Part shown: positions 1 through 59,772 of the stretch, piece by piece
Numbering within the stretch: position 1 is the stretch's first letter
Layout of the letters: the number at the start of each line of letters is the position of its first letter
Assembly: GCF_000299035.1 (NCBI RefSeq)
Contig: NZ_AKCS01000005.1
Coordinates: forward strand, 434,001-498,000
DNA from: Bacillus bingmayongensis
Lineage (GTDB): Bacteria > Bacillota > Bacilli > Bacillales > Bacillaceae_G
Length of the DNA: 64,000 bases
Reading direction: 5' to 3'
Position numbers and translations under genes: made by a program
The notes under the pieces: model-generated
The model's input: only the letters and a program-made list of their open reading frames with translations
The model's database searches: none
What the model was told of the DNA's origin: nothing

Positions 1-632
1 GTTTTGAAATGGTTACTGTTGCCTGCGCAGGCTTCATACAATTTCCATTTGCTTCAAACATCTTATATGTTCCATCCAGTGTTACCGGCAATATAGCCAC
101 ACCCGATTTTACCGCAAGATGAAAACTCCCTGCTTTAAAATCTCCCATTTCACCGCCTTTACTGCGCGTTCCTTCTGGGAAAATTACAATTGAATGACCA
201 TTCTTTAATAATTCGATTCCATCTTTAATAGCTTGAAGAGACTGACGACGATCACTGCGATCCATAAACACACAATTCATCAATTCCATCCAAGTTGGTA
301 CAAGCGGAAATTTCTTAATTTCTGCTTTTGAAACAAATCCAATTGGTTTATTTAAGTACCCAAGTAAAACTGGAATATCCATGTCACTTTGATGATTACT
401 TACAACAAGTACAGGCTTATCTTTCGGCACATTTTCAAGTCCGTTTACTTGTACAGTCGATCCGGCTACACGAACCATTTTCTTACCAAACCAGTTTGTT
501 GTTTTATACACGAGGCGATCTTTTTCTTGTGGCGACATCGTATTTGCTTTACGCTTTATACGCCATAACCTCGGTGTAATACCAATTACAATTAAAATTA
601 AATAAAAGATTTTAAAAAACGTTTGAATCATA
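1..632 (-). CDS. plsC: 1-acyl-sn-glycerol-3-phosphate acyltransferase (3' end outside window)
   Basis: This reading frame starts with ATG at 632 and stays open to the left edge, so the C-terminus is missing. The product should transfer a fatty acyl group to lysophosphatidic acid to make phosphatidic acid at the cytoplasmic membrane. An N-terminal hydrophobic helix (residues about 5-19) is followed by the acyltransferase motif NHQSDMD (H80, D85) and, near residue 150, the substrate-binding motif FPEGTRSKGG. Both motifs are diagnostic of the PlsC/AGPAT family. It is transcribed away from azoR's terminator on the same strand. Only the exact paralogue identity is uncertain. Confidence 0.93.
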
Positions 633-694
633 TAGAACCCCCACCTATTATCACTCCGTCATTCATTATACTAGACAAACGAAGGAAAAAGAAG

Positions 695-730
695 AAAAAA
701 TGTCCAAACGACAAGCGTTTGGACATTTTT
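695..730 (-). terminator. Rho-independent terminator of azoR
   Basis: A perfect inverted repeat (TGTCCAAACG / CGTTTGGACA) is flanked by A and T runs just past the azoR stop at 743. It could work in both directions, but on the minus strand the T run follows the stem directly. Confidence 0.85.
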
Positions 731-742
731 GAGTTTTCTATA

Positions 743-1378
743 TTAGAAACGTTTTGCTACTTCACGTGCATTTGCAATTGCTGCTTCTTTAATTTCCTGT
801 GCTTTTTCAGGATTTGCATTCATTCCTTCAACTGCAAGGTATTCTGTATCAGATACACCCATAAATCCTAATACAGCATTTAGGTGGTTACGACCGAAGT
901 CCATTGCTGCGTAAGGTCCTTCAGAATATACGCCGCCTGTTGCCTGAATGTGAAGTGCTTTTTTACCTTCTAATAAACCAACTGGTCCGTTTTCAGTATA
1001 TTTAAATGTTTTACCTGCGATGGATAAGTTATCTAAGTATGCTTTTACTACTGGTGGATAGCTAAAGTTCCACATTGGTGTTACAAATACATAGCGATCA
1101 GCATTCATAAATGTTTCTAGGTTTGTGTTCATTGCCGCGATTTTTTGTTGTTGACTTTCACTTAATGTTTCAAAACCTTCACCTGCTGCAAATTTACCCC
1201 AAGCAGCAAATACTTCAGCATCAATTGCTGGTACAGTTGTATTAAATAAGTCAATTGTTACTACTTCATCTTGTGGATGTTCATTTTTATATGCTTCGAT
1301 AAAAGCTTCCCCTACTGCCATACCGAAAGATGCTTCTGCAGAGTTTGGATTTGCTGTAATAAATAGTACTTTTGTCAT
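743..1378 (-). CDS. azoR: FMN-dependent NADH-azoreductase
   Basis: The 211-residue product belongs to the flavodoxin-like AzoR/AcpD family, which reduces quinones and azo compounds with NADH using bound FMN. The N-terminus has the phosphate-binding segment after strand 1 (ITANPNSAEASFG), and PMWNFSYPP near residue 100 matches the family's flavin-contacting loop. Length is typical. The start at 1378 is preceded by GGGAGAGAATAA in the minus strand. It stands alone between its own terminator and a divergent AT-rich upstream region. Which azoreductase paralogue it is cannot be told from sequence alone. Confidence 0.93.
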   Translation of the reverse strand: MTKVLFITANPNSAEASFGMAVGEAFIEAYKNEHPQDEVVTIDLFNTTVPAIDAEVFAAWGKFAAGEGFETLSESQQQKIAAMNTNLETFMNADRYVFVTPMWNFSYPPVVKAYLDNLSIAGKTFKYTENGPVGLLEGKKALHIQATGGVYSEGPYAAMDFGRNHLNAVLGFMGVSDTEYLAVEGMNANPEKAQEIKEAAIANAREVAKRF

Positions 1379-1594
1379 TTTTATTCTCTCCCTTAATGAT
1401 TATCTTTAATTTGAGATTTTTAATTAAAAAGTAAATTACTTACCTTATGTAAGTAATAATACAAAAACATCTCCCTAATGTCAATAAAAAATAGCTACTT
1501 TTTTTTCGTAAGTTAATATAATTATTCATCACTTGTTTTTTGCCTCATATAGAAAAAGCTATCTCCTTTCGTGGAGATAGCTTTTTGTTAGCTA

Positions 1595-3580
1595 TTACTT
1601 TTGAAAAATATGTTTCACTTTCTCACCCGGTACGTTACTTCCACCTCGACCTTTTACGTCCTCGATCATCATCGTTACAATCATGTTTGGTGAATTTGCA
1701 TCAAAAGCAGCGAACCATCCAAGTTCTTTTCCCTCTGCTTCTTTTGATTCTTTTAACTCAGCTGTTCCCGTTTTTCCAGCGAGAGTCATTCCATCAATCT
1801 TAGCGATTTTCCCTGTACCATCTTCATCATTAATTACTTTTGTTAACGCATTTTTTAATATATCTTGGTTTCCTTTAGAAATTACATTTTCTTTCCAAGG
1901 TTTAGCTTGTTTATCATCTTTAATTAAGTGTGGAGACGGTATATCACCTTCATTTACAATTGGTGCATATGTTAATGCTAAATGAAGAGGTGTCATTAAT
2001 ACTTGGCCTTGTCCATACCCTGTATCAGCCATTTGAATATCATTTTTAATACCACCTTTTGCAATTTTTGAAACTGGGAATCCATATTCAATTGGTAATT
2101 TTTCATCGAATCCAAATTTCTTTGCTTCACTCATAAATTTATCTTTACCAATTTTTAAAGCTTCTTGTGCAAAGTAAATGTTATCAGAAAACTTCATTGC
2201 TTTGTCAAAATCAATTGGACTCGCATCTTTTACACGTGTTACATAATAATTTCCCCATGAAGAATCTTTTGTCCATTGTAATCCTTCTATTTTCAATTCC
2301 TCTTTTGGATCAATTGTTTTCGTTTCAAGACCGATTGCACCTGTAATTGGCTTAAATACAGATCCTGGTGCGGATGCTTGTGTAAAACGATTCGTCATTG
2401 GTTTTTTCGGATCATTAGCCCATGCTTCACGTTGTGCTTTTGATGCCCCTCTTACCATTACGTTTGGATTATATGCAGGACTACTTACAAGTGCAATTGT
2501 TTCACCAGTTTGTGGATTGATCGCTGCACTTGAACCAGCTTCTCCCTTCATTTCGTTAAAGATTTTTTCTTGAACTGTACTATCAATTGTTAAAGTAATA
2601 TTTTTTCCATCTTTTGCTTCTTTTTTCGCTAAATCTTTTATTTCTTTTCCTTGTGCATCTTCCATGAAGACACGGCCACCCTTTTCGCCGCGCAATTCAT
2701 CTTCAAATATTTGCTCTAAACCAGCTTTTCCAATTGGATCATCTGCTTGATAACCTTTTTTCTGAAGGGTCTTTAAGTCTTCTGCACTTACTTTTCCTAT
2801 GTACCCCGTTAAATGCGCTGCCGCTTCTCCTAATGGATATGTACGAACTTTCACCGGGCGCGATGAAACTCCTGGCAAATCAATATAATCATTTTGCGTT
2901 GCACCTTCTTGTAAAATACCGATTGGCACAAAATAATCTGGTTTCACCCATTTAGCCGCAAGTTTTTGATCAATTTCTTCTACAGACATATTCAGTAGTT
3001 TCGCTACTGTTTCTTTTGTCTGCGGTGCAGCCTCTCCTAATTGTCCTGGAATGATTCCGATTTCAGATGCCGTTCCATTTGTTATAAGCCCTTTTTCATT
3101 ACGATCATATATTTCCCCGCGCTTCGCTTGAAACGTTTGCATACGTATTTTACTGTCTTTTGTCATCCCCGGAAAAATAAAATCTGGAGTCCAATCTATT
3201 TTCCAAGATTCTTTATCTCCATCTCTCTCTTTCACAAGCTTTGCTTCGTGCGAAAAGGAAATTTTCCCACCAACTGTATCCATACTCACTTTAAAAGGAA
3301 CTGGCCCTTTATCTGCTTTATCTTCTTTTACTTCTCCTGTTTCTACCTTCAGATTTTTAACTTCAATACCCGCATAAATCTTTTCGTACTTCTCTGTAAA
3401 ATCTTTTTTTGAAATAGATTTTTTCGCATTTTCTGATAACAAATCATACATATCTGCAAATTTTTGTTTATTCCACGCTTTTGCATATGTATCAAATGCT
3501 TGTTCTGGCTTTTCTTCTTTACCGCATCCTACTAGCATGAGTATGAAGCAAAGAAAAAGCAGCCCCCATAGTTTTTTCAA
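1595..3580 (-). CDS. Lipoprotein penicillin-binding transpeptidase with MecA_N domain (PBP3/PBP2a-like)
   Basis: This is a class B penicillin-binding protein that cross-links peptidoglycan on the outer face of the membrane. The start is TTG at 3580, chosen because AGGAGGAG lies at ideal spacing and the next residues form a lipoprotein signal with lipobox LVGC. Residues about 27-140 match the NTF2-like MecA N-terminal domain, then a dimerisation domain, then the transpeptidase domain. The transpeptidase carries SVFK (about residue 405), SDN (about 463) and KTGT (about 601). The architecture is that of Staphylococcus PBP2a and B. subtilis PbpC. Resistance is not implied; many Bacillus have this as a native PBP. 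Confidence 0.92.
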   Translation of the reverse strand: MKKLWGLLFLCFILMLVGCGKEEKPEQAFDTYAKAWNKQKFADMYDLLSENAKKSISKKDFTEKYEKIYAGIEVKNLKVETGEVKEDKADKGPVPFKVSMDTVGGKISFSHEAKLVKERDGDKESWKIDWTPDFIFPGMTKDSKIRMQTFQAKRGEIYDRNEKGLITNGTASEIGIIPGQLGEAAPQTKETVAKLLNMSVEEIDQKLAAKWVKPDYFVPIGILQEGATQNDYIDLPGVSSRPVKVRTYPLGEAAAHLTGYIGKVSAEDLKTLQKKGYQADDPIGKAGLEQIFEDELRGEKGGRVFMEDAQGKEIKDLAKKEAKDGKNITLTIDSTVQEKIFNEMKGEAGSSAAINPQTGETIALVSSPAYNPNVMVRGASKAQREAWANDPKKPMTNRFTQASAPGSVFKPITGAIGLETKTIDPKEELKIEGLQWTKDSSWGNYYVTRVKDASPIDFDKAMKFSDNIYFAQEALKIGKDKFMSEAKKFGFDEKLPIEYGFPVSKIAKGGIKNDIQMADTGYGQGQVLMTPLHLALTYAPIVNEGDIPSPHLIKDDKQAKPWKENVISKGNQDILKNALTKVINDEDGTGKIAKIDGMTLAGKTGTAELKESKEAEGKELGWFAAFDANSPNMIVTMMIEDVKGRGGSNVPGEKVKHIFQK

Positions 3581-3725
3581 CCGATTCTCCTCCTTTAGCT
3601 AAGCAAAGAAATACTAAATATAAATCTTTCTTTTATGAATTTTTCCTAGGCTACTAATACTTACAGCCTCTACCATTATATCACCAAAAAAGTTCATTCA
3701 TAAAGTTTTATCTTGTTATCCAAAT

Positions 3726-3762
3726 AAAAAGATTGATGTGAACTCCACATCAATCTTTTTTA
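3726..3762 (-). terminator. Terminator of the thyA-folA operon
   Basis: The stem AAAAGATTGATGTG / CACATCAATCTTTT with a T run lies directly after the folA stop codon. Confidence 0.85.
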
Positions 3763-3765
3763 TAA

Positions 3766-4254
3766 TTATTGTTGTTTTTCATATATGTGATAGTAATATG
3801 TGTATGGATTCTTTTCATCCGTAACGCCTTTTTCTACAAAAACTTCTTTCCATTCTTTCATATTCATTTCCGGGAAGAATGTGTCTCCTCCAAATGAATG
3901 GTGAATCTTTGTGATATAAAGCTTGTTTACATATGGTAAAAATAATTCGTAAATTTGTGCTCCACCAAAAATGAAAATTTCTTCTTCATCTTTACAAAGC
4001 TCAAAAACTTCTTCTACAGAATGCGCAATTTCACAACCTTCTACATGATAATTCATATTACGCGTTACGATAATATTCCGTCTTCCTGGAAGTGGTCTTC
4101 CGATCGCTTCATAATTTTTTCTTCCCATAATAAGTGGGTGCCCCATTGTGGTCTTCTTAACATATTGCAATTCACTTGGTAAATGCCATGGTAGCTTATT
4201 ATCCTTACCGATGACTTTATTTTCATCCATTGCGACCATAAATGAAATAATCAT
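3766..4254 (-). CDS. folA: Dihydrofolate reductase
   Basis: The 162-residue enzyme reduces dihydrofolate to tetrahydrofolate with NADPH. The N-terminus shows the classical pattern MDENKVIGKDNKLPWHLP with the conserved W and substrate-binding E/D region. MGRKNYEAIG and IFGGAQIYEL follow at the cofactor-binding positions, and length is typical. It lies 20 bp downstream of thyA on the same strand and shares its terminator, which fits its job of recycling the dihydrofolate that ThyA produces. Upstream AAAGGAGATGAAAAT gives a clear ribosome binding site. Confidence 0.96.
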   Translation of the reverse strand: MIISFMVAMDENKVIGKDNKLPWHLPSELQYVKKTTMGHPLIMGRKNYEAIGRPLPGRRNIIVTRNMNYHVEGCEIAHSVEEVFELCKDEEEIFIFGGAQIYELFLPYVNKLYITKIHHSFGGDTFFPEMNMKEWKEVFVEKGVTDEKNPYTYYYHIYEKQQ

Positions 4255-4274: not shown

Positions 4275-5231
4275 TTACACTGCGACAGGCGCTTTAATTG
4301 CAGGATGTGGGTCATAACCTTCTAACGTTAAATCTTCCATTTCAAAGTCAAAAACAGACTTTACATCTGGGTTTAATTTTAACATTGGGAATGGGCGTGG
4401 TTCACGAGCTAGCTGCTTTTCCACTTGCTCAAAATGATTTGTGTAAATATGCGCGTCTCCAATCGTATGAACGAACTCCCCTACTTCTAAACCACACTCA
4501 TGCGCAATTAAATGTGTTAACAATGAATAGCTTGCAATATTAAATGGAATGCCAAGGAAAATATCACCGCTTCGTTGATATAACTGACATGATAGTTTTC
4601 CGTCTGCTACGTAAAATTGAAATAGCGTATGACAAGGTGGCAATGCCATGCTTGGCACATCTTCAGGATTCCAAGCAGAAACGAGTAAACGACGAGAATC
4701 TGGTGTTTTCTTAATCATTTCGATTACATCTTTTAACTGATCAATTGTCTCACCTGCTGTCGTTTTCCAAGCACGCCATTGTTTTCCGTATACATCTCCT
4801 AAATAGCCATACTGATTTGCAAAATCATCATCTTCTAGTACATTCTTTTTAAATAATTCCATTTGCTCATCGTATTGTTTCTTAAACTCTTCATCTTGCT
4901 GTGAGCGAAGTCCAAAGTCTGTCATATCTGGTCCTTCGTACGCATCACTTTCTACCCAGCTTTTAAACGCCCATTCATTCCAAATATTATTGTTATTTTG
5001 AAGTAAGTAGCGAATATTTGTATCACCTTTCATAAACCAAAGGAGTTCACTAGCTACTAAGCGGAATGGAACACGTTTTGTCGTTAATAAAGGGAATCCT
5101 TTGCTAAGGTCAAAACGCATTTGATATCCAAATACAGATACAGTCCCTGTTCCTGTACGATCTTCTTTTTTTGTACCATGCTCCATCACATGGCGGCACA
5201 AATTTAAGTATTCATATTCAGCATGTTTCAT
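4275..5231 (-). CDS. thyA: Thymidylate synthase
   Basis: This enzyme methylates dUMP to dTMP using 5,10-methylenetetrahydrofolate. The start was set at ATG 5231 (MKHAEYEYL), giving 318 residues, the length of the long ThyA form with the ~50-residue insertion. The longer open frame begins at 5300 but adds 23 non-conserved residues. Seen motifs are RTGTGT near the N-terminus, the nucleophile region [26 protein letters not shown] and HIYTNH. It is the first gene of a two-gene operon with folA. An alternative start would change only the N-terminal extension. Confidence 0.95.
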
Positions 5232-22618: not shown

Positions 22619-22709
22619 CTTCTTTTCCTCCTAATTATATCCTTTTATATCAATAAACAAATATTATTGACCAATCCAAATAAAACCTCCATTTCTTCCT
22701 ATATATAAT

Positions 22710-23015
22710 AAAAAATGGCCCAGCATCTCTTTATATAAAGAGACGCTAAGCCATTTACTTAACGCGGTACCACTCTTATTGATTCCATTATGAATCCACC
22801 TTAGCAGTAATCGTTTGATTACAAACCTGTTATCGAAGGTTAACCGTTAAGATTTACTAAGAATTAGACTTCTGTTCCACCTTACTGCTCCTAGGCGAGT
22901 TCAGGATGTTATTTGACTATGTCGCACCAACCCATAGCTCTCTGTACAAACACATGACCTTACTACTCCTATTCAACACACTTTAATATTCTGAATATAA
23001 TTCCTTTTGAAATTA
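22710..23015 (-). promoter_or_regulatory. T-box riboswitch controlling the NSS transporter
   Basis: Read on the minus strand, the leader has a stem I with an AGTAGTAAG loop segment and GAACTCGCC at the specifier position. The T-box core AGTGGTACCGCG (plus 22763-22775) follows, then a terminator hairpin with a T run at 22710-22756. Compared with the aspS and ileS leaders in this window, the specifier is most likely CTC (Leu), because it is then followed by a purine. UCG (Ser) cannot be excluded. Confidence 0.88.
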
Positions 23016-23190: not shown

Positions 23191-24312
23191 TTATACGTTT
23201 TTTTTCTGTTTTCGCAACGCTTTTGGAATGTATACACAGAAAGGTTCACTTTCCATGTAATCTCCGGTCATCGCAAACGCTCTGGAACGAGATCCTCCGC
23301 AAACATATCGAAACTCACAAACTCCGCACTTTCCTTTATACTTGTCCGGATTACGCAAGTCTTGGAAGACAGGGGCGTTTCGATAAATATCAGCTAGTGG
23401 TGTTGTTCTAACGTTCCCTGCTTTGATAGGTAATAACCCACTTGGATATACATCTCCAATATGAGAAATAAATACAAAACCGTTTCCATCATTCACCCCT
23501 TTTGGAGCACGTCCAAGCCCATCTATTTGCCCCGTCATTCCATTCATCAATACATCCTGATATTGAATAGGCTGATCCATTTTTTTATTTTCTTTCATTT
23601 TTTGTTGAATAACAACGCGTCTATAGTGCTGAGCAGCAGTTGTTTTAATATCAAAAGAAACCTTTTTACTTAGTTGATATAGCCATTGGAATACCCTTTC
23701 ATGCTGAGCTGGTGAAATCATATCTGTTTCCTTGCCGCGCCCCGTTGGAACTAAGAAAAATACACTCCACAGCACACAATCTAATTCTTCTACTAAAATT
23801 GCCATATCTTCAAGTACATTCACATTATAATTAGAAACAACAGTATTAATTTGAATAGGAATTTTTAATTCATGCAAGTAACGAATCGCCTTCATTGTTA
23901 ATTCAAATGACCCATCTGTCCCTCTAAAATGATCGTGTATTTCAGCTGTTGGTCCATCTAAACTAAATGCCCATCTAGCAAGTCCTATTTCTTTTGCTTT
24001 TCGAATCGTTTCTTTTGTAACATTTGGGGTAGCACTTGGTGTCATGGATACCCGAACACCTTTTTTTACCGCATAATCCGCAATATCATATACATCCGGA
24101 CGCATTAACGGATCTCCGCCAGTAAAAACAAGCATTGGATTATCCATTTCATATATATCATCAATTAGTTTTTTCCCCTCTTCAAATGTTAGCTCAAGAG
24201 GATGACGATGATACTGAGCTTCCGCACGACAATGAATACATTTTAATTGACATGCTCTTGTTAACTCCCATATTACAATAAATGGATTTTTATTAAAATC
24301 ACGATTAATCAA
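23191..24312 (-). CDS. Radical SAM/SPASM protein
   Basis: The 373-residue protein has the radical SAM cluster motif CQLKCIHC (CxxxCxxC, residues about 20-27), FTGGDPLMRPD and a C-terminal SPASM cluster region (CGVCEFRYVCGG ... C). This architecture is shared by peptide-modifying enzymes and by heme-pathway enzymes of the Ahb/NirJ type; similarity to the latter group seems greater. The start is TTG 24312, chosen because AGGAGG lies at perfect spacing. No precursor peptide gene is visible nearby. An Fnr-like box upstream suggests anaerobic expression. Confidence 0.87.
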   Translation of the reverse strand: MINRDFNKNPFIVIWELTRACQLKCIHCRAEAQYHRHPLELTFEEGKKLIDDIYEMDNPMLVFTGGDPLMRPDVYDIADYAVKKGVRVSMTPSATPNVTKETIRKAKEIGLARWAFSLDGPTAEIHDHFRGTDGSFELTMKAIRYLHELKIPIQINTVVSNYNVNVLEDMAILVEELDCVLWSVFFLVPTGRGKETDMISPAQHERVFQWLYQLSKKVSFDIKTTAAQHYRRVVIQQKMKENKKMDQPIQYQDVLMNGMTGQIDGLGRAPKGVNDGNGFVFISHIGDVYPSGLLPIKAGNVRTTPLADIYRNAPVFQDLRNPDKYKGKCGVCEFRYVCGGSRSRAFAMTGDYMESEPFCVYIPKALRKQKKNV

Positions 24313-24342
24313 GATTAAAACCTCCTATCGATTTATATTCTA

Positions 24343-24385
24343 ATTGTAAAGTTATATAAGCATTTATGTTGTGAGATACATCACG
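24343..24385 (-). promoter_or_regulatory. Fnr/Crp-type box and promoter of the radical SAM gene
   Basis: TGTGA-N6-TCAC lies at 24370-24385. A -10-like TACAAT (minus strand, 24343-24348) places the likely start of transcription about 41.5 bases from the box centre. That is the class II activator geometry typical of Fnr. Confidence 0.6.
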
Positions 24386-24741
24386 CATGAAATTTCAAGT
24401 ATAAAGAAAAACTTTTATCCGTGGAGGGTTCTTCATCCTTCACTGATTATTAGCCTGCTTCTCACCTATCTTTTTTGTTTTCACTGAAATTTGAGGTTTT
24501 GGGGGCTTACTACCCAAAAACAGTGGGATAAAAGAATGTGCAGTCACTTCACATTTCTAACACTGCTGTTAATCTCTTTTATTGACATGTTATTTTGTCA
24601 GCGCCCAAAGAATTCGCAAAATAATAACAATCCTTATTCTCTCAAACAATTTATAGATTAACATGTCCACCGTTTAGACTAGCCTTTTATCTTGTCCCTT
24701 TAAAAATTCTTTACCCTCAAAAATCTAGCAAAATAGCAATT
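24386..24741. other. Intergenic region at the left end of the toxin array
   Basis: No gene is recognised. It contains a hairpin TTTTGGG / CCCAAAA at 24497-24519 and, at 24541-24589, a ~49-base sequence that recurs imperfectly at 36477-36525. The T-rich stretch before the CdiI-like gene's stop shows no clear terminator. Confidence 0.5.
24541..24589. repeat. Imperfect direct repeat, left copy
   Basis: CAGTCACTTCAC, TTCTAACACT, CTGTTAAT and TTTTATTG.CATG are shared in order and spacing with 36477-36525. The two copies lie 12 kb apart near the ends of the orphan toxin array. Confidence 0.7.
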
Positions 24742-52236: not shown

Positions 52237-53535
52237 TTATGGCACAAGACGCGTACAATCCCTCGGAAACGCACTCGCCTCTCGAACATTTGATAGTTCT
52301 AAAAACTTATAAACAAGCCTTTCTAGACCGATTCCAAAACCACCATGCGGCGGACAGCCATATCGGAATGTGTCAATATAAGACTGAAAATTTTCAGGTT
52401 GTAGCCCTTTTTCTTTAAAAGAAGCAAGTAACATACCATACTCATGAATGCGCTGCGCACCTGACGTAATTTCTAACCCTTTATACAATAGGTCAAAAGA
52501 ATCCGTAACAGCTTGATTTTCTTTATTCGGCATCGTATACATCGGTCTCGCTTCTTTCGGATAATGTGTGATGAAGACAAAATCACTACCGTATGTTTCC
52601 ATCACATATTTTCCAAGTAGTTTTTCCCCTTCTGTATCTAAATCGCCAGCTGGTGATTCTTTTTGGTACTTTGTTTTTAAAATACGCTGTGCCTCTGCAA
52701 GTGTAATCTTTGGAATTTCTGTAATGATAGGAACCGTAACTTGCAAGAGCTCTAATTCTTTTTCACATTTCTGTCCTACTTGTTCAAACATATAGCGTAA
52801 AACATCTGCCTCTAATGTCATCACTTCATGAAAATCATGAATAAACCCAAGTTCTACATCTAAAGATATATATTCATTCAAATGGCGGGAAGAGTTGTGA
52901 TGTTCTGCTCGATAAACTGGAGCAATTTCAAAAACACGTTCCAATCCGCCTGCGACCATCATTTGTTTATAAAATTGCGGTGACTGTGCTAAATATGCTT
53001 CTTTCTGAAAATAAGGTAGTTTAAAAACATTCGCTCCACCTTCCGCTCCTTGTGAAACAATTTTCGGTGTAAATATACGTGTGAAATCGTTCTCTATTAG
53101 AAATTCACTAAATGCCTGTACGAGTGTCGATTGAACCGTGAAAATTGCCTGTATCCGTTCATGCCGAAGTGATACCACGCGCTCATTTAACATTTGATCT
53201 AAACCAACTTGCAGCTTTCTTTTGTTCACTTCAAATGGAAGTGGATCAGAGGTATTCAATAACTGTATTTTACGCACAAGCACTTCCACGCCTAATTCTG
53301 TTTTCGTTGTCTCTACTAGTTCTCCCGTAATTTGAACAACACTTTCCACATCAACTTTATAGCCGGCCAAGTCTTTTTCTAACACACATTGGATGACACC
53401 TGTTCGGTCACGTAATAATAAAAAACTGATATTCCCCAAGTGACGAATTTTTTTCACCCAACCTTGTAGTAAAACCACCTTTTTACTAGACGTTTTACAT
53501 TCACGAACGAGTGACCGCTTCATTGTTTGATCCAT
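52237..53535 (-). CDS. aspS: Archaeal-type aspartyl-tRNA synthetase (likely tRNA Asp/Asn)
   Basis: The 432-residue class II synthetase has an N-terminal OB fold (VLLQGWVKKIRHLGNISFLL) and a catalytic domain with GAEGGANVFKLPYFQKEAYL, AQSPQFYKQMMV, the motif 2 Arg in APVYRAEHHNSSRHLNEY and motif 3 GFGIGLERLVY. This is the short archaeal/eukaryotic AspRS form, not the ~590-residue bacterial one, so it is probably a second, acquired AspRS, possibly non-discriminating. ATG 53535 follows AGGAGGAAACAATA. A T-box with specifier GAC (Asp) and an Asp/Asn-rich leader ORF precede it. Confidence 0.9.
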   Translation of the reverse strand: MDQTMKRSLVRECKTSSKKVVLLQGWVKKIRHLGNISFLLLRDRTGVIQCVLEKDLAGYKVDVESVVQITGELVETTKTELGVEVLVRKIQLLNTSDPLPFEVNKRKLQVGLDQMLNERVVSLRHERIQAIFTVQSTLVQAFSEFLIENDFTRIFTPKIVSQGAEGGANVFKLPYFQKEAYLAQSPQFYKQMMVAGGLERVFEIAPVYRAEHHNSSRHLNEYISLDVELGFIHDFHEVMTLEADVLRYMFEQVGQKCEKELELLQVTVPIITEIPKITLAEAQRILKTKYQKESPAGDLDTEGEKLLGKYVMETYGSDFVFITHYPKEARPMYTMPNKENQAVTDSFDLLYKGLEITSGAQRIHEYGMLLASFKEKGLQPENFQSYIDTFRYGCPPHGGFGIGLERLVYKFLELSNVREASAFPRDCTRLVP

Positions 53536-53596
53536 TATTGTTTCCTCCTATATTCTCATATTTATTTACATTATTGTTGTCATCGTCATCATCCAC
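53501..53596 (-). CDS. Asp/Asn-rich leader peptide ahead of aspS
   Basis: Between the T-box terminator and aspS lies a 31-codon frame with start GTG 53596 after a near-perfect AAAGGAGGTGA ribosome binding site. It reads MDDDDDNNNVNKYENIGGNN and ends in a TGA at 53501, 35 bases inside aspS in another frame. Five of the first six codons are Asp (after the start) and the next three are Asn; ten Asn occur in all. The aspS ribosome binding site lies inside this frame, so its translation should affect aspS translation. This looks like an attenuation-type sensor of charged tRNA Asp/Asn. Confidence 0.7.
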   Translation of the reverse strand: MDDDDDNNNVNKYENIGGNNNGSNNEAVTRS

Positions 53597-53621
53597 GGTC
53601 ACTCACCTCCTTTCAAAGAAT

Positions 53622-53859
53622 ACAAAAATCCGCCCCTATAAATAGGGACGGATTTTTTCCGCGGTACCACCCAAATTGCCATACTGACCATCTTAGACCT
53701 GATAACGGTAGGTACCGTTTGCTTTTACTAATCATCACGTTCAAAGCAACGCTCACAGGTGTCTTTCCATCATGCGGTATCGCAATCTTCCCAGCAACCG
53801 ATTGCTCTCTGGAGACCCTTGCATCATGTACTTTTCCTGTTCATCACTTTTTATATTTA
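53622..53859 (-). promoter_or_regulatory. T-box riboswitch of aspS, specifier GAC (Asp)
   Basis: Stem I ends with GATGGAAAGACACC, where GAC occupies the specifier position after GAA-A. The T-box core GGGTGGTACCGCGG lies at 53659-53672 and a terminator hairpin with T run at 53624-53658. Uncharged tRNA Asp should allow readthrough into the leader peptide and aspS. Confidence 0.9.
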
Positions 53860-53865
53860 CAGAGT

Positions 53866-53894
53866 ATTCTATTCCTTTAAAAGAGAAAACGCAA
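53866..53894 (-). promoter_or_regulatory. Promoter of the aspS T-box transcript
   Basis: TTGCGT (53889-53894) and TAGAAT (53866-53871) with 17-base spacing lie just upstream of the T-box stem I. Confidence 0.6.
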
Positions 53895-54069
53895 GTGTTT
53901 TTTCGTTATTTTCTGATTTTTTATTTTAAACTCATTCTGCAATCCTTTCTTCAAGTTTTTGAAATGCTTTTGAATCATAACCTCCCCATCTCAAAAACAT
54001 CTCATTCTATTACATAGCAATTGATTGTTTCACGCATATTATTAGTAAATGTATTCTGGAGGTCTATAC

Positions 54070-56364: not shown

Positions 56365-59300
56365 TTAACTTGCTGGACTCAGCTTAATACGAAGCGTTTT
56401 GTCACCTAAAGAAATTATATCATCCTCCTGTGACAATGCCTCAAATGTAAATTGCCTCGCTAACAAGTTTTCTTCTAGTAAACCTTTATGTTTTGTTAAT
56501 GTTCTCTGTAATTCATCTTCTGTATCAAGAATTACATCCACTCGCAAATTAACAGGTAAGTTCAACTGTTTTCGATACTCTTGAACAGCTCGAATAAATT
56601 CACGTGCTACCCCTTCTTGTAACAATTCATCTGTCACATTTGTATCTAACATAACTGTATATTGTCCATTTGTCGTATTAGAAAACCCTGCTTTCGGCAC
56701 TTGTTCTACCAATACATCTTCAAGTGTTACTGTAATTTCTTCTCCTGAGACAAGCTTACACATTGCTTTTTCATCTACAACAAAGTTTTGTACTGCTTCT
56801 TGCGATAATTGTTTTAGCCATTGATTTACAGCATTTACGTTCATTCCGAACTTCGGTCCTGCCGTCTTAAAGTTTAGCTTTAATTGATACGATGTATACT
56901 TTGTTTCATCTAATTCTACATGAAATGCTTTTACGTTCAGTTCATCCATGACAATGTCACGATAGGATTCCCAATCCACTTTCTGTTCATGATGCTCGAG
57001 TAATACAAGTTCTGCTAATGGTTGTTTTACTTTTAAGGCATGTTGATTTCGATTGCTACGTCCGAGCTCGACAACTTGTAAAACAGCATCCATTTCTTGT
57101 TCTAGTTTTGTTTGAATAACAGTTTCATCCGCTGCTGGATAATCCGTTAAATGAACACTACTTCCTTCTAAGTTAAGATGAATATCTTCCGCTACAAATG
57201 GAGTAAACGGAGCGAGTAACTTACTAACCGTGACAACCACTTCATGAAGAGTTTCATATGCCGCTGCCTTTTCAGGATTCATACCAGACTCCCAAAAACG
57301 ATTGCGTGAACGTCTTACATACCAGTTACTTACCTCATCTACAAGATAAGCAATTTCACGAGCTGCATTTGTAAATTGATACTCTTCTAATGCGCTCCTT
57401 ACTTTTTTCGTTGTACTATGAAGGCGTGATAATACCCACTCATCTAGTTTCGTTTTCTTAACCTCGTACTTCCCTTTTGGGTTGTATTCATCTAAGTTTG
57501 CATATAAAACATAGAAGCTATATACATTCACAAGGGTATCTACTAGTTTTGATTTTGCCTCTTGGACAGTTCTTTCAGAAAAACGTTTTGCATTCCACGG
57601 TGCACTATCAACAAGGAGAGCCCATCTTAGTGCATCTGCACCAAATTTTTCAACTAACTCTACTGGATCTAATGCATTCCCTTTACTTTTTGACATTTTC
57701 TGTCCTTGTTCATCTAGCACATGTCCAAGAGATAATACACGTTTGTATGGCACTTTTCCAGTATATAAAGCCGCTACTGCTAATAAGCTATAAAACCAAC
57801 CACGCGTTTGATCAACACCTTCAGCAATTACATCAGCTGGGAATTGTTCCTCAAAAAGCTCTTTATTTTCAAAGGGATAATGATACTGTGCAAATGGCAT
57901 CGAACCGCTATCAAACCAAACATCGATTACTTCTGGCGTACGAGTCATCGAACTGCCGCATTTTTCACAGCATACTTTCACTTCATCTACATACGGTTTA
58001 TGCAGTTCTGAATTTTCAGCTGTATGTCCTACGCTATGACTTCTTAATTCATCAATACTCTTCGGCGCAAATTGATGATCACAGTTTTCACATTCCCATA
58101 CATTTAACGGTGTTCCCCAGTATCGTTTCCGGCTAATATTCCAGTCTACCATATTCTCTAAAAATTTCCCGAAGCGTCCGTGTTTCATATGGTCCGGATA
58201 CCATGTGACTGCATCATTATTCTTTAAGAAAGTCTCTTTGATCTCAGTTGTCCGAATGAACCAGCTTTCTCCAGCATAATACAGGAGTGGTGAATCACAG
58301 CGCCAGCAATGCGGATAACTATGCTCATATTTCTCTTTATGGTATAGCAAGCCTTCCCCAGCTAAATAACGAACAATATCAACATCACATTCTTTCACAA
58401 ACTTCCCTTGTAAAAACGGAACAGCTTCCGTATACTTACCTTGCTCATCCACAACATGAAGAAACGATAACCCTTGATTTTGTACCACTTTATAATCATC
58501 TTCTCCATAAGCTGGCGCGATATGAACAAGTCCAGTCCCACTATCTCCCGTAACAAAATCCGCTGAAATAACATGGTATCCATTTGTCACCTCAGCCATA
58601 GGAAACGGCGCTGTGTAGGAAATACCTACCAATTCTTCTCCTTTATGAGTAGATAATACTTGATGTCCTTCTTTTAACACATCATTTGCACGCTCTTTTG
58701 CGACAATATAAACCGTTCCACCTTTCTCTGCTTTCACGTATTCCATATCCGGATGTACAGCAAGTGCTACGTTAGCAGGCAGTGTCCACGGCGTTGTTGT
58801 CCATCCAAGAAAATATTCATTTTCACTATTCAACACTTTAAACTTTACCGTTGCACTTAAATCCTTTACTGTTTTATATCCTTGCGCTACTTCATGTGAA
58901 CTAAGTGATGTTTGGCAACTTGGACAGTATGGTGAAACTCGATGACCTTTATATAAAAGCCCTTTTTCATGAATCGTTCCAAGAATATGCCATACACTCT
59001 CGATATAAGGATTTTCCAACGTTACATACGGGTCATCCATATCGACCCAATATCCGATGCTCTCAGTAAATTCACGCCACTGCTTCTCATACGTAAATAC
59101 ACTTTCTTTACATTTTTGGATAAACGGTTCAATTCCGTATTCTTCAATCTCATGTTTACCGGAAATACCAAGCTGTTTTTCAACTCCTAATTCTACCGGT
59201 AATCCGTGCGTATCCCAACCAGCTTTTCGAAGTACTTTATACCCAGTCATTGTTTTATATCTCGCTACTAAATCTTTAATCGTCCGTCCGAGCGCATGTC

Positions 59301-59466
59301 CCACGTGCGGCAGTCCATTTGCAGTTGGTGGCCCTTCATAAAAAACGAAAGATTGTGCACCTTCACGATTTCGAATGGATTGCTCAAAGATATTCTGCTT
59401 GTTCCACTGCTTGCGAATTCGTGTTTCTCTCCCTACAGCTGATTCTTTTACATCTACCTTCTCCAT
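56365..59466 (-). CDS. ileS: Isoleucyl-tRNA synthetase, second (eukaryotic-like) type
   Basis: The 1033-residue class I synthetase has the HIGH motif as LPHVGHALG in [15 protein letters not shown], the KMSKS motif in [10 protein letters not shown], the CP1 editing domain ([14 protein letters not shown]) and an anticodon domain ([14 protein letters not shown]). Length and the absence of a C-terminal zinc tail place it in the IleRS type that includes eukaryotic and mupirocin-tolerant enzymes. Bacilli with this form often also have the shorter bacterial ileS. ATG 59466 follows AAAGGAGTGATTGTAA. A T-box precedes it. Confidence 0.93.
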
Positions 59467-59499
59467 TTACAATCACTCCTTTGAAATTTTGTAAAAGCA

Positions 59500-59772
59500 C
59501 ACAAAAAACCCGTCCCTAAAAGTAGGGACGGGTTTACCCGCGTTACCACCCTAATTCTATTAGCCTTTTAACTAATAGCGCTTAGCAACGTACTAACATA
59601 CGCGTTCTTTGTAACGGTAGACATCCGTCCGAGCTTACTCTATTCAGCCACGGCTCCTCGGAGATGATTTTCAAATAAAGTCTGTACACCGGCTTTCAGC
59701 ATAGCACCGGCTCTCTGGGGAACAATACGATATTTTACTCTTTCTCGTCTTCAGATTTGTATACTTTTATTA
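59500..59772 (-). promoter_or_regulatory. T-box riboswitch of ileS, specifier ATC (Ile)
   Basis: The leader contains stem I with TTTGAAAATCATCTCC (specifier ATC after GAA-A), the T-box core GGGTGGTAACGCGGG at 59537-59551, and a terminator AAACCCGTCCCTA / TAGGGACGGGTTT with T run at 59503-59535. Confidence 0.92.

Follow-up and report, generated by a model that had tools for sequence, protein, structure and literature searches.

A conserved Asp/Asn-rich leader reading frame between a T-box and the aspS2 gene of Bacillaceae and Paenibacillaceae, a candidate translational attenuator

Why should a gene for an aspartyl-tRNA synthetase (AspRS) that already stands under the control of a T-box be preceded by a short reading frame of Asp and Asn codons, which runs across the start of the synthetase gene? 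The question is raised by a locus of Bacillus bingmayongensis within a stretch of 64,000 nt (contig NZ_AKCS01000005.1, positions 434,001 to 498,000), which is called the window here. On its minus strand, a T-box is followed by its terminator, the Shine-Dalgarno sequence AAAGGAGGTGA, a reading frame that begins with GTG, and aspS2, the gene of an extra AspRS of archaeal type (Table 1). The sequence confirmed what an earlier note on this DNA had described: a GTG start behind a strong ribosome-binding site, a run of five consecutive Asp codons, ten Asn among 31 codons and an overlap with the start of aspS2 in another frame. The leader ends 35 nt past the aspS2 ATG at 53535, and a second in-frame GTG is found at 53602, merely 3 nt after the GGAGG of the leader site. 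The description of the leader as Asn-rich stood in part. The ten Asn codons are indeed present, but only the block from codon 2 to about codon 12 is shared with relatives; the later Asn codons of the window, absent for instance in the relatives L003 and L004, are not conserved and arise where the leader frame reads through the A-rich aspS ribosome-binding site.

Table 1 Features of the aspS2 leader region; positions are those of the window
Feature	Position	Strand	Basis or remark
T-box leader (RF00230), specifier GAC (Asp)	53641..53853	-	Rfam 141.7 bits, gathering score 93
Intrinsic terminator of the T-box	53624..53657	-	terminator scan of 53300-54050
Leader ribosome-binding site AAAGGAGGTGA	53603..53613	-	sequence; GGTGA-type site in 33/33 relatives
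Stem 5' arm GAGUGACCG (inverted-repeat half GAGTGACCG)	53596..53604	-	reaches to base 1 of the leader start codon
Leader reading frame	53501..53596	-	GTG start, 31 codons and stop; reads VDDDDDNNNVNKYENIGGNNNGSNNEAVTRS
Asp/Asn block, codons 2-11 (DDDDDNNNVN)	53564..53593	-	conserved in composition: codons 2-12 of 33 leaders
aspS2 Shine-Dalgarno GGAGG	53544..53548	-	within the leader frame, 8 nt before ATG
Stem 3' arm CGGUCACUC (inverted-repeat half CGGTCACTC)	53509..53517	-	aspS codons 7-9 (Arg-Ser-Leu)
aspS2, extra archaeal-type aspartyl-tRNA synthetase, 432 aa	52237..53535	-	NCBIfam TIGR00458 and NF003483 above cut-off

Relatives were collected by scanning a genome collection with the AspRS2 protein. 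At least 595 stretches matched, 589 of them relatives, from which the best 80 were kept; no record of the B. cereus group is among these best 80 of 589. Whole-genome searches, which overlap one another, found a close AspRS2 in 2 of 19, 7 of 104, 6 of 397, 10 of 392 and 12 of 193 genomes. Repeats were dropped (L081–L085, L089–L095, L097, L100, L102, L103, L105, L108, L110, L118, L119, L122–L124, L126–L129 and L131–L139), as were L104, in which the contig ends inside the leader (the overlapping L130 shows the leader), the decayed copy L125 and the AsnRS genes L086–L088. The final set consists of 33 distinct Bacillaceae/Paenibacillaceae loci, the window included. The start of aspS was set by hand for L013, L015, L108, L109, L114, L116, L120 and L121.

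All 33 loci have a T-box that reaches the gathering score (the window plus 16/16 and 16/16 relatives), and at each of them the specifier, located by the Rfam alignment and read by eye, is GAC and fits the regulated gene. All 33 carry the leader between this Asp T-box and aspS2, behind a Shine-Dalgarno sequence of the GGTGA type. A crude test for an Asp run, requiring a start codon followed by at least 4 Asp in codons 2–11 and lying at most 250 nt upstream of aspS2, was positive for 33/33 of these loci vs only 1 of 64 other aspS2 loci (L014 and L018–L080, mostly clostridial); the sole positive among the latter, L070, reads MDKILRRDSDD and is unlike the leader. Codons 2–12 of the 33 leaders encode Asp 217, Glu 5, Asn 68 and Lys 15 times (raw counts that ignore kinship), as compared with 512, 1358, 513 and 770 times, respectively, in the AspRS genes. 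Pairwise differences per site in leader codons 2–8 amount to 0.21, 0.15 and 0.46 at codon positions 1, 2 and 3. The Asp:Glu ratio of 217:5 together with the variation at third positions therefore indicates that what is conserved is the amino acid Asp, rather than acidity or the bare RNA. The earlier note had left a choice between conservation and drift of the Asp/Asn codons, to be decided within the B. cereus group; in our set of more distant relatives the codons are conserved at 33/33 loci, and the leader is kept at the amino-acid level.

The manner in which the leader meets the gene varies among relatives. At 32 of the 33 loci it passes the aspS start; in 28 of these the two frames differ, and in four (L005, L111, L006 and L114) the leader reads straight on into aspS. 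In L109 the leader stop lies 14 nt before the aspS start. A fixed frame relation or a conserved fusion to AspRS was rejected, as the frame relation is 0, 1 or 2 among the relatives. A fixed leader end as a signal was likewise rejected, since the leader ends anywhere between 14 nt ahead of the aspS start and 194 nt beyond it, or is fused. In the four continuous loci the leader is open into aspS, so that an AspRS with an acidic N-terminal extension is possible there.

Furthermore, genomes were scanned with a pattern consisting of a Shine-Dalgarno sequence, a start codon and an Asp run. Of 392 Paenibacillales genomes, 9 had matches, 10 in total, and each of these lies at aspS2: eight adjoin AspRS2 hits, one (G770) lies on a contig that runs into AspRS2, and one is at L125 (G004). 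The backward control pattern gave no match in the same 392 genomes. A second form of the pattern, used for another family, matched 8 times, in 8 of 193 genomes and always adjoining aspS2, against 1 match of its backward control. The patterns miss true leaders, with no match in 1 of 10 and 4 of 12 aspS2 genomes, and a search for copies on plasmids gave no match. The locus L125 of Paenibacillus hemerocallicola (contig C35 of G004, near 23968–24620) is a second copy of aspS2 that has decayed and is interrupted by stops and shifts of frame; T-box motifs and the leader MDDGDDNNN are still present. Within the 5.3 kb around aspS2 of Paenibacillus solanacearum (L010), a Guanidine-I riboswitch was found at 4676–4780 on the minus strand.

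Additionally, we report a new observation made on the sequences, namely that the region of the leader start is complementary to early aspS codons and that the two arms of this long-range stem co-vary. The 9-base arm motif has just these two matches in the window, where 0.13 would be expected. Over the 33 loci the native arms pair with a mean of −17.7 kcal/mol vs −12.4 kcal/mol for cross-species combinations, and none of 20,000 permutations, which fit mismatched arms in the same way as native ones, reached the native mean. The result was 0/20,000 also for permutations within two supergroups and for 12 hand-picked representatives. Within eight narrow clades, likewise chosen by hand, the native value was reached in energy by 390 and in run length by 517 of 20,000 permutations, with the register fitted per sequence, which favours pairing. 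Because kinship alone might produce an advantage of native pairing, we ran the same test after moving one arm to 12 other positions; there, 624 to 3985 of 4000 permutations matched the native pairing, vs 0/4000 at the true place. On the AspRS2 tree, and again with a register fitted per sequence in favour of pairing, the core pairs R3, V1, V2 and V3 are formed in 31, 32, 33 and 33 of the 33 loci and show 5, 8, 7 and 5 changes of pair type, respectively, and the outer pairs R1, R2, L1, L2 and L3 are formed in 29, 26, 29, 25 and 29.

The stem is part of the predicted fold at 31 of the 33 loci (exceptions L001 and L009), and the weakest arm duplex is that of L109 (−10.7 kcal/mol). The centroid structure of the window segment is essentially this stem; as a whole, the segment folds no better than its shuffles (z −0.57; 51 of 200 shuffles fold as well). 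A transcription attenuator with a codon leader was considered and rejected, as there is no terminator-like site on the minus strand between the T-box terminator and 53300 (from 53623 down).

The aspS Shine-Dalgarno sequence lies in the loop closed by the stem. Predicted opening costs average 15.6 kcal/mol for the leader start vs 9.4 kcal/mol for the aspS site. When the leader start is occupied, the mean for the aspS site falls from 9.4 to 6.9 kcal/mol, and the cost is lower by more than 0.5 in 27/33; with a ribosome on codons 8–11 the mean is 5.0 kcal/mol, with a rise in L003 and L010. An exception is L116, for which occupation of the leader start raises the cost from 3.9 to 10.1 kcal/mol. In the Paenibacillus-type loci, the 3' arm starts 24–39 nt past the aspS ATG and thus lies outside the footprint of an initiating ribosome. 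As to the idea of the earlier note that stalling exposes or hides the aspS site, a moderate computed effect on that site was obtained; the stem hides mainly the start of the leader itself.

In agreement with the same note, the leader frame contains the aspS ribosome-binding site. By geometry, a ribosome that has any leader Asp codon in its A site has its leading edge short of the aspS Shine-Dalgarno sequence at 33/33 loci, leaving the site free. When every Asp and Asn position in the block is considered, the site stays free in 30/33. L099 was read by hand; its last Asp codon (11) puts the edge at +43, and the Shine-Dalgarno sequence is at +58. The leader start codon marks the end of the 5' arm, so that a ribosome at the first Asp codons, with a footprint of the generally known size, covers this arm.

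Compared across the loci by sequence, the T-box, the strong leader site, the Asp/Asn block and the co-varying stem are kept together. We consider it fairly probable that they form a translational attenuator below the T-box, in which ribosomes read whether Asp codons, and probably Asn codons, are decoded; the direction, the size and the signal of the control are what we infer. When Asp-tRNA is short, a ribosome would wait on the first Asp codons (2–8) and cover the 5' arm, so that the stem could not form; with the stem open, the aspS ribosome-binding site downstream would be free and aspS2 would be translated. If the ribosome were held at the Asn codons (about 8–14) instead, the arm would be released, but another ribosome could fit behind it on the leader start and act likewise. 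With ample charged tRNA, ribosomes would traverse the leader and pass over the aspS start, the stem would close between passages, and translation of aspS2 would go down. The T-box would thus set whether the mRNA is made, and the leader how well it is translated. The main difficulty for the attenuator comes from the four in-frame loci, because run-through would still make an (extended) AspRS there instead of shutting it off. Further points against it are the early leader stop and weak pairing of L109, the opening cost that is far higher for the leader start than for the aspS site, the rise in L116, the position of the 3' arm in the Paenibacillus-type loci, and the predicted folds of L001, L009 and the window segment. 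With more hesitation, and as less likely than not, we suggest that the layout may be one not seen before. In it, the leader initiation site would form one arm and early aspS codons the other; ribosomes on aspS would re-open the leader, and leader ribosomes at Asp, or queued by Asn, would keep aspS open. Charging of tRNA-Asp would be sensed by the T-box at transcription, and decoding of both amino acids that a non-discriminating AspRS attaches, Asp and Asn, by the leader at translation.

The main rivals of the attenuator are an interference of ribosome traffic without the stem and a sensor of acidity. According to the former, leader ribosomes block the aspS start, scarcity of Asp-tRNA thins this traffic, and the stem, which is not needed, trims leader initiation. 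Such interference draws on the strong leader ribosome-binding site and on the passage across the aspS start in 32/33; however, leader ribosomes would make AspRS themselves in 4/33 and stop before the aspS start in 1/33, and the co-varying stem would have no main function, so that we regard this explanation as unlikely. An acidity sensor appears somewhat less likely again. Here, the early acidic run would make ribosomes pause or drop off, by intrinsic destabilization or in a manner that an ABC-F protein (EttA, for example) relieves, and Mg2+ or energy would be sensed instead of tRNA charging. Such effects of early acidic residues occur in E. coli, where the MgtL leader depends on them, as described in an excerpt of PMC11282234, and the Asp run of our leader does start at codon 2. 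Charge alone, however, would accept Glu, which therefore makes its near-absence (Asp:Glu 217:5 in codons 2–12 vs 512:1358 in the AspRS genes) speak against this explanation. Asn is enriched as well, with 68:15 over Lys, and in the two pattern scans (392 and 193 genomes) the leader was met only at the gene for the Asp-tRNA synthetase.

That the stem hides mainly the leader start, at a predicted cost of 15.6 kcal/mol, and lies beyond the aspS initiation footprint in Paenibacillus-type loci would also suit a coupling in the reverse direction: the stem would shut the leader unless aspS is translated and the 3' arm thereby opened, and the peptide or its translation would serve another end, such as mRNA stability. 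As this leaves unexplained why Asp/Asn codons are kept ahead of an AspRS gene, we think it quite improbable. A chance reading frame in a purine-rich 5' region has hardly any probability left. Part of the Asn codons in the window are indeed a by-product of the aspS ribosome-binding site, but the presence at 33/33 loci, the variation at third positions and the permutations of the arms led us to reject it.

The type of AspRS2 bears on whether Asn may be sensed as a product of this enzyme. The protein of the window reaches 452.5 bits against TIGR00458 (cut-off 368.4) and 613.6 bits against NF003483 (cut-off 353), both of which represent the non-discriminating type, and its best solved relative is the non-discriminating Thermus enzyme (1n9w/3kfu). 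At two positions where 1n9w has His and Pro, which we take to be anticodon-binding positions with a role in the non-discriminating type, the window protein has Lys (GWVK) and Glu (TKTELG). Lys occupies the His position in 16 and His in 12 of the 30 relatives parsed by script; Pro is found at the second position at 12 of the 33 loci (read by eye), 10 of these among the 12 Paenibacillus-type loci. The earlier note's assumption of an AspRS able to charge tRNA-Asn is supported in part: two NCBIfam cut-offs for this type are passed, but the enzyme of the window lacks the His and Pro of the Thermus enzyme. Because Pro occurs mostly in the Paenibacillus type and the window type has Lys/Glu instead, sensing of Asn as the second product of AspRS2 is plausible for the Paenibacillus type. 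An AsnRS is also encoded in the two leader-bearing genomes tested with NCBIfam (G001 and G003).

How does this arrangement compare with known systems? In the ermC and cat attenuators, a ribosome held in the leader by an antibiotic opens a structure that holds the ribosome-binding site of the gene. The likeness lies in a held leader ribosome that opens an RNA structure limiting translation of the next gene; in contrast, their signal is an antibiotic and the site of the gene is in the stem, whereas here the arms are the leader start and early coding sequence. The trp, his and pheM-pheST transcription attenuators carry cognate codons in a row within a short leader. This they share with the present leader, which, however, overlaps its gene and is not followed by a terminator in the window; his leaders are among the examples of amino-acid codon leaders in an excerpt of PMC9413887. 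Other T-box-controlled AspRS genes of Bacillota are under the same control, yet 63 of the 64 other aspS2 loci (L014 and L018–L080, mostly clostridial) are without the leader according to the crude test.

A close parallel is the rtpA gene (anti-TRAP, at operon) of B. subtilis, where a short leader ends just before the Shine-Dalgarno sequence. Both systems combine T-box control with a reading frame of cognate codons between T-box and gene (here at 33/33 loci). They differ in that rtpA concerns Trp and a regulator gene and this locus Asp/Asn and AspRS, and in that the leader stop precedes the Shine-Dalgarno sequence there, whereas here the leader passes the aspS start in 32/33 and its start pairs with aspS codons. 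T-box control of rtpA and a translation that responds to uncharged tRNA-Trp, with a leader peptide coding region, are cited in excerpts of PMC4027176 and PMC11255114. The statement of the earlier note that no such case had been described therefore does not hold, and the principle of joining a T-box and a leader peptide is already known, since the rtpA operon has both. With MgtL and other acidic leaders, the present one has early acidic residues in common, but here Asp is kept against Glu (excerpt of PMC11282234). The literature searched (titles and the beginnings of abstracts) contained no report of an Asp leader at aspS, and in PMC2965389 none of the terms 'aspS', 'aspartyl' and 'aspartate' occurs; as far as this search reaches, the Asp/Asn leader at aspS is unreported. 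Our results suggest that a T-box and a codon-reading leader are combined on the same gene outside the Trp system as well, and that the pair is kept across Bacillaceae/Paenibacillaceae for an aminoacyl-tRNA synthetase, in a compact layout in which one co-varying stem ties the leader start to the gene start. They also raise the question why an extra AspRS should have two sensors of tRNA charging.

Two further T-box genes were seen in the window, both on the minus strand. At 56365–59760, an isoleucyl-tRNA synthetase is by score most like MupA/MupB, below the cut-offs for these; the T-box at 59521–59760 precedes its gene, and no leader reading frame was seen between them. At 22640–22985, a T-box (22736–22985) stands before a putative SNF-type amino-acid transporter (assigned by eye), and a possible TTG-started mini-ORF, MDWSIIFVY, lies between the two.
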